From Bacteroidaceae bacterium (GTDB taxonomy: Bacteria > Bacteroidota > Bacteroidia > Bacteroidales > Bacteroidaceae), in the NCBI GenBank assembly GCA_024398405.1, contig JAKSJE010000005.1:1-48159 (forward strand): a stretch of 48,159 nt of DNA. The letters run 5' to 3'. The stretch's first letter is position 1. Every line of letters starts with the position of its first letter. Positions 228 to 42,528 of the stretch are shown here, piece by piece. The position numbers were made by a program, and so were the translations under genes. The notes below the pieces were generated by a model. The model had not been told where the DNA came from, did no database searches, and worked only from the letters and a program-made list of their open reading frames with translations.

Positions 228-427
228 TTAGGGGTGTTCTATAAATTCCACGCAAATGAAAGATTGACATGAGCTTTGTGTGTTATTGCTATTTTGATGC
301 TTTTGGCTTTTTCTTCAGCAGGTTGCTGTCCTTCATTCAGTCACGATGCCCGCATCGTTCCTTCCGCACAGCAACCTGCTAAGAAAAATCTCAAAATCAC
401 CTAAGATGTAATTAGGTGGGTTCTATA
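228..427. repeat. ~200-bp structured repeat element, copy 1
   Basis: This segment aligns end to end with 25961-26161. The left end (231-248) matches 16 of 18 bases of that copy's terminal repeat. The core is a long hairpin: 308-315 pairs with 381-388, and 317-329 pairs perfectly with 368-380 (13 bp), leaving one bulged C at 316. A small apical stem ACGATG/CATCGT (343-348 / 353-358) closes on the loop CCCG. At the right end the outermost bases (415-427, GGTGGGTTCTATA) are inverted in place relative to copy 2. The element abuts the stop codon of the minus-strand gene ending at 428. It encodes no transposase. Confidence 0.8.
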
Positions 428-23393: not shown

Positions 23394-25964
23394 ATGAAAA
23401 AAAGACTATTGATGGCATTAGCCATGTTCGCAAGCATTGCAGCGCAGGCTCAGAATCCGATTATCCGAGACCAGTTCTCCGCCGACCCATCAGCACTGGT
23501 AGTGGGAGACAGAGTCTATGTATTCCCGTCACACGACATCCCAGCCCCCGACGACTACGGGCGCAAGGACTGGTTCTGCATGGCAGACTACCATGTGTTC
23601 TCATCCTCAGACCTGATGGACTGGACCGACCACGGCAAGATAGTCGATCAGAAGAACGTGGAATGGGTGAACTCGGCTACATATTCCATGTGGGCACCCG
23701 ACTGCAAGGAGCACAACGGTAAATACTACTTCTATTTCCCCGCTATGCAGAAGGTGAGGGAAGGTCAGCGGTTCGGTGGCTACCGCATAGGAGTCGCCAC
23801 AGCCAACCGTCCCGAGGGACCTTACCGCGTGATGCGCGAGCCCATCGAAGGTCCTAACGGCATCGACCCTTGCATCTTCAAGGACGATGACGGCACGGGC
23901 TACCTTGTATGGCCGTCGCGCGGGTTCACCATCGGCAAGCTGAACGATGACTGGACAAGCCTCTCCGGCGAACGCCATCAGGTGGAGAACACGCCGACGA
24001 AGGGACTCATCGAAGGACCATACCTCTTCAAGGCCAACGGCTACTACTACATGACCTTCCCTTGGGCACGCAACAACACCGAGGTACTCGCCTACTGCAT
24101 GTCGAAGAACGTGTTCGGCCCTTATGAGTTCAAGGGAGTCTTCTTCGAGGAGCATGCCAACGGCTGCTGGACCAACCACCACTCCATCATCAACTTCAAG
24201 GGCCAGTGGTATGTGTTCTACCACTGCAACCACTATTCGCCATCGATGGACAAGCGCCGCTCCGTCTGCGTTGACTCACTCTTCTTCAACGAGGACGGTA
24301 CCATCCGTATGGTCAAGCCGACCCTGCGCGGAGTCGGTGTGGCAAAGGCATACAAGCAACTCGAGATCGACCGCTACAGCACCATCGGCGGCGGGGCGTT
24401 CATCGACTATCACGACACCCTGGACTGCTTCAAGGGCTGGAAGACCGTGTTCCCGAAGAAAGGCGCATCCGTCACCTTCAATTCCGTTGACTTCCAGGAC
24501 GGAGTAGGCACAGTCAAGCTCATGGCTCGCGCGCCAAAGGGCGGTGTGCTGACCATCGGCGCACCTGCCGAGATGGTGTCGGTGAAGGTGCCTTCCACCA
24601 GTGACTGGAAACTCGTCACGGCTAAAGTCAAGACCCCGGCACAAGGCATCCAGAACCTGACGGTGACACTGAAAAGCGGAAGCGACGTGGAAGTCGATTG
24701 GGTGACGTTCGACGAGGCGCCCTACGCCAAGAGCGGCATGGAGACAGGCGAATACCGCAACTACTTCCTCGAGATGGGCTACAGCCAGAAGCAGATTGAC
24801 GAGAAGCTGCAGTCAGTGTTCGACGACGTATTCTACGGACCTCACAAGTGCTACTTCGAGGTCGGTGACTCCATGGGCTACATCTCCGACGTCAAGAACA
24901 ATGACGTGAGAACCGAGGGAATGTCATACGGGATGATGATAGCAGTGCAGTTCAACAAGAAAGACATCTTCGACCGCCTTTGGCGCTGGAGCAAGAAGTA
25001 CATGCAGATGACCGAAGGAGCCAACAAAGGCTACTTCGCATGGAGTTGCCGGCCAGACGGTCGTCGGAACTCCAACGGTCCAGCCTCTGACGGTGAGCTC
25101 TATTTCATCACCTCCCTCATCTTCGCAGCCAACCAGTGGGGCAACGACACAGGCATCAACTACCTTGAGGAAGCCCAGTACATCGTCAACCAGTCGATGT
25201 CGAAAGCCGGCATGGACCGCGGCGGTACCCTCATAGACCTCGGCACCAAACTGATCACCTTCGTGCCGGGCAGCAACTACACCGACCCGTCATACCATCT
25301 GCCCGCATTCTACGAGGTATGGGCAAAATGGCTCTACGACGGCAGGTCGAACTTCTGGAGGCAGTGCGCCGAGGCAAGCCGTGAGTACCTGCACAAGAGC
25401 ATCAACCCCAAGACAGGCCTGAACCCCGACACGAACAACTACGACGGCTCTCTGATGGCAGGCTGGCGCGGCGGTCAGCAAGGCACGTTCCGCTACGACT
25501 CCTGGCGCGTGCCTATGAACATAGCCCTCGACTACTCCTGGTCGTGCGCGGACAAGGACTGGCAGCAGAACTACGGCAACACAATACAGAACTTCCTCTA
25601 CAGTCAGGGAGTCAAGACATTCGTTGACCAGTACAACGTTGACGGTTCAATACCGACCGACACCCTCCGCGCCGGCAACTTCCCGAAGGCACTGCGCCAC
25701 TCCATGGGCCTGGTCGCCACCAGTGCGGCAGTGTCGCTCTGCGCCACGCACTCGAAGAGCAAGGAATTCGTCCGCCAGCTCTGGGACACACCCCACGAGC
25801 CACTGCCCGACGGCTTCTTCGATGAATACTATGACGGACTGCTCCGCCTCTTCGCCTTCATGCACCTGAGCGGGAACTACCGCGTAATCGAGAACAAGTT
25901 CAAAGCCCCTGTCCAGGAACGTCCGATGGGAATGGGCGGCGGAATGGGATTCTGGGGATTTTAG
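23394..25964 (+). CDS. GH43-CBM6-GH8 fusion enzyme
   Basis: The 856-aa product has signal peptide 1-20 (AAQAQ). Residues about 21-325 are a GH43 five-blade propeller with base D31 (SADPSALV), GIDPCIF and acid in LIEGPYLF. Residues about 335-445 resemble a CBM6-type sandwich (CFKGWKTVF; VEVDWVTFDE). Residues about 450-830 are GH8, with general acid E508 in DVRTEGMSYGMM and the GPASDGELYF region. GH8 members in xylan loci are often reducing-end exo-oligoxylanases; GH43 would supply beta-xylosidase or arabinofuranosidase activity. The C terminus is Gly/Met-rich (MGMGGGMGFWGF) without the shared tag. Its TAG stop codon forms the first bases of the structured repeat element. Confidence 0.88.
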   Translation: MKKRLLMALAMFASIAAQAQNPIIRDQFSADPSALVVGDRVYVFPSHDIPAPDDYGRKDWFCMADYHVFSSSDLMDWTDHGKIVDQKNVEWVNSATYSMWAPDCKEHNGKYYFYFPAMQKVREGQRFGGYRIGVATANRPEGPYRVMREPIEGPNGIDPCIFKDDDGTGYLVWPSRGFTIGKLNDDWTSLSGERHQVENTPTKGLIEGPYLFKANGYYYMTFPWARNNTEVLAYCMSKNVFGPYEFKGVFFEEHANGCWTNHHSIINFKGQWYVFYHCNHYSPSMDKRRSVCVDSLFFNEDGTIRMVKPTLRGVGVAKAYKQLEIDRYSTIGGGAFIDYHDTLDCFKGWKTVFPKKGASVTFNSVDFQDGVGTVKLMARAPKGGVLTIGAPAEMVSVKVPSTSDWKLVTAKVKTPAQGIQNLTVTLKSGSDVEVDWVTFDEAPYAKSGMETGEYRNYFLEMGYSQKQIDEKLQSVFDDVFYGPHKCYFEVGDSMGYISDVKNNDVRTEGMSYGMMIAVQFNKKDIFDRLWRWSKKYMQMTEGANKGYFAWSCRPDGRRNSNGPASDGELYFITSLIFAANQWGNDTGINYLEEAQYIVNQSMSKAGMDRGGTLIDLGTKLITFVPGSNYTDPSYHLPAFYEVWAKWLYDGRSNFWRQCAEASREYLHKSINPKTGLNPDTNNYDGSLMAGWRGGQQGTFRYDSWRVPMNIALDYSWSCADKDWQQNYGNTIQNFLYSQGVKTFVDQYNVDGSIPTDTLRAGNFPKALRHSMGLVATSAAVSLCATHSKSKEFVRQLWDTPHEPLPDGFFDEYYDGLLRLFAFMHLSGNYRVIENKFKAPVQERPMGMGGGMGFWGF

Positions 25965-26161
25965 GTGGGTTCTATAAATTCACCGAATAATACAAATTTA
26001 TCAAACATGGGTGACATAATTCTTTTCAGCGCTTTTGGCTTTGTTCCGGCATCTTGCTGTTTGTCAGTCAGTCATTATGCCCGCATAATTCCTTCCTTCC
26101 GCACAGCAATCTGCTCGGAACAAACCTCAAAATCGCAAGAAATGAATTTATAGAACCCACC
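25964..26161. repeat. ~198-bp structured repeat element, copy 2, with perfect terminal inverted repeats
   Basis: Perfect 18-bp inverted termini: GGTGGGTTCTATAAATTC (25964-25981) and its complement (26144-26161). The core folds as 26040-26048 with 26116-26124 (9 bp), 26054-26060 with 26103-26109 (7 bp), and apical ATTATG-CCCG-CATAAT (26074-26089). All three helices match copy 1 (228-427) in position but differ in sequence with compensating changes. It fills most of the gap between the GH43-GH8 and GH10 genes and holds no credible ORF. It is MITE-like in size; a conserved structured RNA is the alternative. Confidence 0.85.
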
Positions 26162-26176
26162 TTTAATCACTCCGCT

Positions 26177-27430
26177 ATGAGAAAGACATTATCAGTATCA
26201 TTACTCGTGTCCGCCTGTCTGAGCATGAGCGCCCAGACCACCTACGATCCGAAGACAGACGAGCTCCATCTGCGCGACTACGCGGAGATGATGGGCAAGT
26301 ACATCGGTGTCTGCGTACCTGTGGGCAGCATGAACATAGCCAACGACAACGACAAATACGCCCAGAAAATCTATACTGAGTTCAATGCAGTCGTTGCCGA
26401 GAACGAAATGAAGATGGACGCCCTCCAGCCGAACCAGGGGCAGTTCAACTACGGCAACGGAGACAAACTGGTGGCCTTCGCCAAGCGACACAACATGAAA
26501 GTCCGCGGCCATACCCTCTGCTGGCATTCACAGGTGCCTAAATGGATATCGGAGGACGGCTACCAGAACAACAAGAACTACACACGCGCCAACCTGCTCA
26601 GCATCCTGAAGCGCCACATCACCTCGGTGATGCGCCACTACAAGGGTAAAGTGGCAGAGTGGGACGTGGTCAACGAGACCCTCGATGACAACCAGTGGGG
26701 CGTGAGCCTCTCGAACGGCAAATACAACCTCCGCCAGTCAATCTGGGTGAAAGTCATCGGTGAGGACTTCCTGGACTCCGCCTTCACATGGGCTCACAGG
26801 ATAGACCCCGACGCGAAGCTGTACCTCAATGACTATGGCGCCGACTTCTACGGCGGAAGCAAGGCCACTGCCATGTATAACCTCGTGAAACGCATGAAGG
26901 ATGACGGAGTGCCAATCGACGGAGTCGGCCTGCAGTGCCACCTCAGCTCTGGCGACGCCGTGGAGGGCATAGCCAAGAACGCACGGTTCTACAAGCAGAA
27001 GCTCGGCATCGACTGCATCATCACCGAACTGGAACTGAAAGCCGGAGCCAGCACCTCAGCCAACCTGAGCAAGCAGGCGGAAGCCTACAGGAAGATACTC
27101 GAAGGCTTCCTCACGAATCCCAACGCACCGACCATGATGCTATGGGGAATCGATGACAACCACACATGGATCGAAGGCGACCAGAACCCCCTCATCTTCG
27201 ACAAGAACCTACAGCCGAAACCGGCCTACTACAGTCTGCTGGAGGCATTCCATAACGGATACGTCACAGACATCCACCAGCCGTGGGCTGAGTACTCAGC
27301 ATCCGCTGCCGTCGATGACGCCGTCTATGATATATCAGGACGCAAGGTGGCTGACAGCCTCGAGGAGTTCAGCGCCGATGGCAATTCAGGCATATTCATT
27401 CATAATCATAAAAAATTTATCCAAAGATGA
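26177..27430 (+). CDS. GH10 endo-beta-1,4-xylanase with C-terminal tag
   Basis: The 417-aa product starts with signal peptide MRKTLSVSLLVSACLSMSAQ. Residues about 33-380 are one GH10 domain with VRGHTLCWHSQ, acid/base E167 in WDVVNETLDD and nucleophile E284 in IITELELK. The end carries the shared module YDISGRKV followed, after a short insert, by GIFIHNHKKFIQR. The open frame extends upstream to 26054 but would run through the repeat element; the ATG at 26177 gives a proper signal peptide. It would cleave internal xylan bonds, probably at the surface if the tag directs export. Its stop overlaps the next start (ATGA). Confidence 0.93.
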   Translation: MRKTLSVSLLVSACLSMSAQTTYDPKTDELHLRDYAEMMGKYIGVCVPVGSMNIANDNDKYAQKIYTEFNAVVAENEMKMDALQPNQGQFNYGNGDKLVAFAKRHNMKVRGHTLCWHSQVPKWISEDGYQNNKNYTRANLLSILKRHITSVMRHYKGKVAEWDVVNETLDDNQWGVSLSNGKYNLRQSIWVKVIGEDFLDSAFTWAHRIDPDAKLYLNDYGADFYGGSKATAMYNLVKRMKDDGVPIDGVGLQCHLSSGDAVEGIAKNARFYKQKLGIDCIITELELKAGASTSANLSKQAEAYRKILEGFLTNPNAPTMMLWGIDDNHTWIEGDQNPLIFDKNLQPKPAYYSLLEAFHNGYVTDIHQPWAEYSASAAVDDAVYDISGRKVADSLEEFSADGNSGIFIHNHKKFIQR

Positions 27431-42440: not shown

Positions 42441-42528
42441 AACGTGACAATCAGTCTCGCAAATCAATCTGTAAGGGTGTTCCATTAGTTCCCCGAAAAA
42501 TGTAGAAATCAAATCAGAAGATATTCCC

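Follow-up and report, generated by a model that had tools for sequence, protein, structure and literature searches.

A Bacteroidales MITE family with IS5-type ends around a conserved, covarying hairpin core

The window analyzed here, a stretch of 48,159 nucleotides from a Bacteroidaceae bacterium (assembly GCA_024398405.1, contig JAKSJE010000005.1), contains at positions 25964-26161 a complete element of 198 bp that is a non-autonomous transposon (MITE): It combines perfect 18-bp ends, a target duplication, IS5-type ends and a high copy number. It belongs to a large family whose hosts are bacteria of the gut and the rumen. In our joint reading, which we regard as probable, this is a family of IS5-type MITEs in which a core selected for its fold outlives the ends around it, and in which this core, acting as RNA, aids the persistence of the copies.

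The element sits between two glycosyl hydrolase genes on one strand, an upstream gene of families 43 and 8 (23394-25964, plus strand) and a downstream gene of family 10 (26177-27430, plus strand). The G of the upstream gene's TAG stop is at the same time the first base of the element, so that the insertion occurred at the stop codon. The left terminal inverted repeat of 18 bp (25964-25981, plus strand, GGTGGGTTCTATAAATTC) has its exact partner in the right one (26144-26161, minus strand, GAATTTATAGAACCCACC), and the whole is flanked by a 4-bp target duplication, TTTA (25960-25963 and 26162-26165), which was absent from an earlier, sequence-only reading of this DNA. The element is assigned to the minus strand, its folding strand as marked by G.A mismatches. 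The conserved hairpin core occupies 26022-26141 on this strand and scores 122.5 bits against our covariance model R1, which counts this copy among its 39 sequences. The core carries an apical 6-bp stem with a CGGG loop (26074-26089, ATTATG CGGG CATAAT on the minus strand), followed on either side by the two halves of a tandem G.A motif, GAAGGA on the 5' side (26090-26095, minus strand) and GACTGA on the 3' side (26068-26073, minus strand). An uninserted counterpart of the site had no match among the fetched loci. REP/RAYT elements are short tagged palindromes with neither inverted ends nor target duplications; the inverted ends and the 4-bp duplications rule out this identity for the window element.

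A second copy lies at 231-427 (minus strand), and its core (290-405, minus strand) reaches 77.9 bits against R1 as a copy outside the model's 39 sequences. The conserved words and stem differences that the sequence-only reading had described for the two copies are confirmed in the sequence, and one covariance model matches both cores. Its claim of perfect 18-bp inverted ends holds for 25964-26161 but fails for the copy that it had placed near 228: This copy begins at 231, has another left end type (GGGGTGTTCTATAAATTC; the left end reads GGGGTGTTC...) and a damaged right end, in place of which a left-end fragment, GGTGGGTTCTATA (415-427, plus strand), runs in the left end's direction and is not its inverted partner. 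Perfect ends are thus confined to 25964-26161. At 42474-42491 the window also has an isolated, degenerate end of this second type (AGGGTGTTCCATTAGTTC), intergenic and without a core match.

The 18-bp end has 216 matches with up to 3 mismatches in the source genome, which spans 1.7 Mb and is 60% complete, compared with 0 for the reversed control; a first scoring of 40 out of 163 preliminary candidates gave 69 matches, among them short ones to the end alone. From the loci in hand we drew 132 end pairs spaced 50-420 bp apart, of which 91 are core-bearing, lie at distinct sites and have both flanks; this selection excluded pairs whose core scored below 11, that had another loop, that lacked a flank or that repeated a site, as well as two nested duplicates. 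Identical 4-nt flanks border 59 of the 91 elements, whereas 2000 shuffles averaged 15.7 and never exceeded 27. The target duplications are 97% A+T, the commonest being TTAA (25) and then TTTA (12). Contigs of the source genome often start within an element copy (e.g. C1:34-51, C3:34-51, C62:68-85), and thus the repeat seems to break the assembly. A distant blastn search of a plasmid collection at E 1e-5 returned no match.

Three insertion sequences have related ends, GGTGRGTTCTA and GGGGANTTCTA: one from the same order (L089), one from a Bacteroidales MAG (L191) and one from Flavobacterium franklandianum (L161). They measure 1286-1293 bp, are flanked by 4-bp duplications of TTAA or TAAA, and match the IS5-family transposase model NF033581 with 276.3, 280.6 and 277.1 bits, respectively (cut-off 140). 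We infer that the MITE is moved by an IS5-type enzyme. The ends, the target duplications and the copy number uphold the MITE-like character that had been proposed from the ends in the window, as do the IS5-family insertion sequences of other species, whose ends are related. As to a transposase with the same ends, IS5-family elements with related ends do exist elsewhere, but the source genome, 60% complete and searched with the L089 transposase as one query, gave no match. The source genome has one DDE_Tnp_1 gene (98.3 bits), and the 2.7 kb examined around it contain no element end at up to 3 mismatches. In two further genomes, G045 and G615, a search for insertion sequences bounded by the ends found there gave, by eye, MITE-sized pairs and lone ends only among the matches listed (reversed controls 2 and 1). 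Lone ends in L121-L123 and L124 were rejected as parts of autonomous transposons for want of a partner end at a suitable place; the segment L143 4555-5589 has the right size for an insertion sequence, but its ORF is unlike a transposase and lies between element fragments. In an Ignavibacteria MAG, like ends enclose a very different palindrome, TCATTCTGAGCGAAGCGAAGAATC (L135:2248-2368, L194:323-456, L209:5529-5652), which indicates that, beyond Bacteroidales, ends of this kind are associated with a different cargo.

Model R1, built from 39 diverse copies, finds the core in 164 of 399 genomes and 19 of 25 genera of the window's family (completeness filter 85), in 26 of 393 genomes from 15 families of the order, the source genome included, and in 2 of 395 genomes of a phylum draw, both of them from the window's family and none from outside it. 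These counts were obtained with stricter filters and nine candidates scored per genome, and they count genomes, not copies. Named contigs with core matches belong to Bacteroidaceae, Prevotellaceae, Paludibacteraceae, Muribaculaceae, Porphyromonadaceae and Alistipes, among others. The window's end type, allowing at most 1 mismatch, was found in 48 of 399 genomes of another family draw, many with a single match (reversed control 3); the core looks commoner than this end type, with draws and thresholds that differ between the two counts.

Elements of other genera with like ends differ in most of their letters and share, with few gaps, a common core around the hairpin tip. Alignment A1 started from 80 selected copies; a limit of 93% identity reduced these to 40, and removal of a misanchored sequence left 39, including the window copy. 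RNAalifold predicts 31 pairs on A1, of which 30 have two-sided changes; 90.2% of the cells pair, against 38-44% with slid partners, and the covariation score is reached by none of 500 shuffles. When compared with 200 alignments simulated on a maximum-likelihood tree, 18 of the 31 pairs fall below E 0.05 when E is computed for 31 tests, and 7 still do so over all 6786 column pairs, where the null is a home-made version of R-scape's test and the tree was built from the same short alignment. Seven of the 10 best-scoring column pairs overall belong to the predicted structure. The 26 loci outside the model behave alike, with 90.3% of cells pairing versus 45-52% for slid partners in an alignment fitted to the model. 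The view that the paired substitutions reflect selection on structure, put forward in the sequence-only reading, is supported by the 18 significant pairs, and covariation exceeded the phylogenetic background against which that reading had set its claim.

The folding strand follows the pattern GA-NN-GA, six stem bases, CGRG, six stem bases, GA-YY-GA, in which two tandem G.A motifs sit below a CGGG or CGAG tip. Counted from the tip, rung 7 is A.G in 30 of the 39 sequences, rung 8 is G.A in 25, rung 11 is A.G in 32 and rung 12 is G.A in 28; the rungs 9 and 10 enclosed by them are Watson-Crick in 34 and 27 of 39. It is because the opposite strand gives C.T mismatches that the tandem G.A motif marks the folding strand. 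In the 26 loci outside the model the motif is weaker (17, 16, 13 and 8 of 26 at rungs 7, 8, 11 and 12). On the folding strand, G.T occurs in 65 cells and A.C in 20, spread over 25 of the 31 pairs, a tally of sequences and not of events. By pair, G.T is favored in 11 cases and A.C in 5, with 9 ties; since this split is mixed and the pair-calling program favors G.U, the excess of G.T is moderate evidence only.

Around this core the ends change. Many of the 26 loci outside the model have other ends, namely GAAACTGTTTTGAATTT, GAGCCTGTTTAAATTTTA and relatives with 3-bp TAA or TTA flanks, GAAGTSATTTAAACTTTTT or GTAACTGTTAGGAAATATC; because the end search favored identical flanks, individual assignments are soft, and some loci, e.g. 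L257 and L261, yielded no convincing ends. Elements of the window's end type vary between genomes in their outermost bases, which are alike at both ends of one element. In a midpoint-rooted tree of 65 cores, this end type splits among several supported groups. Two loci of one genus, L254 and L255, are grouped with support 100, and their cores align closely while both ends differ, which amounts to an end swap within one genus.

Forms that lack the core occur as well. An 84-bp form without it is present at two unrelated sites of one MAG, with ATAA flanks at both, and reads as a deletion derivative; other core-less forms of 62-76 bp also have identical flanks. Because such forms are found at several duplicated sites, the core is probably dispensable for transposition. 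Several amplified subfamilies of the source genome keep the lower stem and have a tip replaced or extended by GC-rich modules, most of them with duplications, so that the tip can go without loss of mobility and is not strictly required. Five loci of the source genome (L026, L030, L074, L075 and L085; 228-303 bp) illustrate such a replacement or extension of the tip by other hairpin modules, GC-rich in four of the five (e.g. CGCTCCGCTTGCCCTGGGCTATGAG), with identical 4-nt flanks in four of the five.

That the fold is kept despite changes of letters and ends suggests that it does something useful. The core is recognizable across the order, it covaries, it keeps odd mismatches and it outlives its ends: Selection on the fold would best explain these properties together. 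A more far-reaching proposition is that the superfamily is defined by its structured, RNA-like core and not by ends or transposase, that ends have been swapped between transposase systems across Bacteroidales over very long time, and that the fold itself pays; we put this forward tentatively, with the odds somewhat against it.

Concerning the surroundings, 77 core-bearing copies with flanks lie between co-directional genes in 37 cases, divergent genes in 19 and convergent genes in 9, with 12 uncallable; none of the 77 lies inside a called ORF, in a count that an ORF cut by the insertion escapes. Among the 37 co-directional cases the folding strand shares the direction of the genes in 15 and has the opposite one in 22. 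As both orientations occur, there is no support for a cis effect tied to one strand, and the near-equal numbers point to a role that is independent of one transcription direction. A promoter box at a fixed position was not found.

Since the fold is seemingly unneeded for movement, we think that it aids persistence, most likely as RNA; action of the core as RNA has indirect support only. In the mechanism that we propose, the core would fold as RNA on the G.A strand whenever a neighboring promoter transcribes the element by read-through, and the folded core would help copies persist. One possible route is that it makes an intergenic insertion tolerable, the mixed transcript being stabilized or insulated; alternatively, the core may bind a host protein.

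The strongest competitor of the RNA reading is a role at the DNA level, in which the core would act as a folded single strand or a cruciform, e.g. during replication, transfer or transposon excision. Long imperfect palindromes may extrude and tandem G.A pairs are stable in DNA too; the unbiased gene orientation and the absence of a promoter box at a fixed place also speak for a DNA fold. Core-less derivatives with target duplications at several sites speak against it, however, and so does the frequency of G.T at single rungs (rung 6 in 16 of 39, rung 21 in 14 of 39), which fits RNA better. We regard a DNA fold as unlikely. Less credit still, and to us a distinctly poor chance, goes to the idea that the fold is unselected and arises from arm-to-arm correction of quasi-palindromes by replication template switching. 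Such correction is known and the elements are long imperfect palindromes. The source genome, too, gives no sign of selection on single copies: Six singleton changes were counted among its 26 copies, three of them at paired positions, where one keeps and two break the pair, which is too few to tell. Correction should, however, make mismatches vanish, yet each of the four G.A rungs persists in 25 to 32 of the 39 sequences next to rungs that change, and the same mismatches recur, more weakly, in the 26 loci outside the model; G.T also exceeds A.C on one strand. Neutral arm-to-arm correction leaves these retained mismatches unaccounted for. A short peptide encoded across the element, which the plus strand of the window copy would allow in being open over much of its length, is hardly credible, because none of the reading frames through the core stays open in every one of the 39 sequences (best 23 of 39) and covariation tracks the hairpin.

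A MITE with a selected, RNA-like fold thus stays our preferred reading, and its kind, a folding MITE with IS5-type ends, is already known. ERIC/IRU and NEMIS/Correia are mobile intergenic palindromes that fold when transcribed; they belong to other bacteria and have other sequences, and they are not known to have a tandem G.A motif with a CGRG loop. In Porphyromonas gingivalis, one report describes MITE464 and MITEPgRS along with ISPg4, which have IS5-family ends that are similar while the remainder of the elements is not (PMC4596501). Like these, the present elements are short and non-autonomous, occur in several copies and have IS5-family ends, and the ISPg4 end GAGACTGTTGCA resembles the GARNCTGTTT ends seen here in other families; unlike in the P. 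gingivalis MITEs as described there, one homologous, covarying core is found across the order inside unlike ends (PMC4596501). PINSR of Prevotella intermedia is described as an intergenic sequence of 188 bp with 177 and 184 copies in two strains, reported without terminal inverted repeats and with one copy downstream of tnaA (PMC4755523). It is similar to our element in length, intergenic position, high copy number and related hosts, and differs in its lack of inverted ends (PMC4755523). Of 30 tnaA loci, among which P. intermedia may not be represented, 29 are without a core match and one, L329, has two flanking copies. These two (L329:1320-1440 and L329:3256-3376), from the same family, have identical cores in one orientation on either side of the tryptophanase gene, and together they could move or delete tnaA.

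The structured RNA families of Rfam 15 include Bacteroidales families, to which the present element is similar in being structured and covarying (PMC2864571). Searches of Rfam gave 0 matches for the window, 0 for the element at E up to 2 and 0 for six relatives' loci at E up to 0.5; four weak hits were far under their gathering scores. A word search of PMC2267715 found no passage on Bacteroides, Porphyromonas or Prevotella. In searches of the open-access literature we noticed no description of MITEs from Bacteroidales whose fold is conserved.

The usual view of bacterial MITEs is that they are transient remnants of insertion sequences, recognized by their ends. Here, it is the interior that appears to be old and under selection, with a presence in 164 of the 399 genomes sampled from the family, and the ends appear replaceable. 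If the fold is functional, a large number of the intergenic hairpins of Prevotella-like bacteria and their relatives would belong to one uncharacterized regulatory or selfish system, whose role is open to direct testing in culturable Bacteroidales. At the minimum, the covariance model lets annotators mark these elements, at which the contigs of the source genome tend to break.
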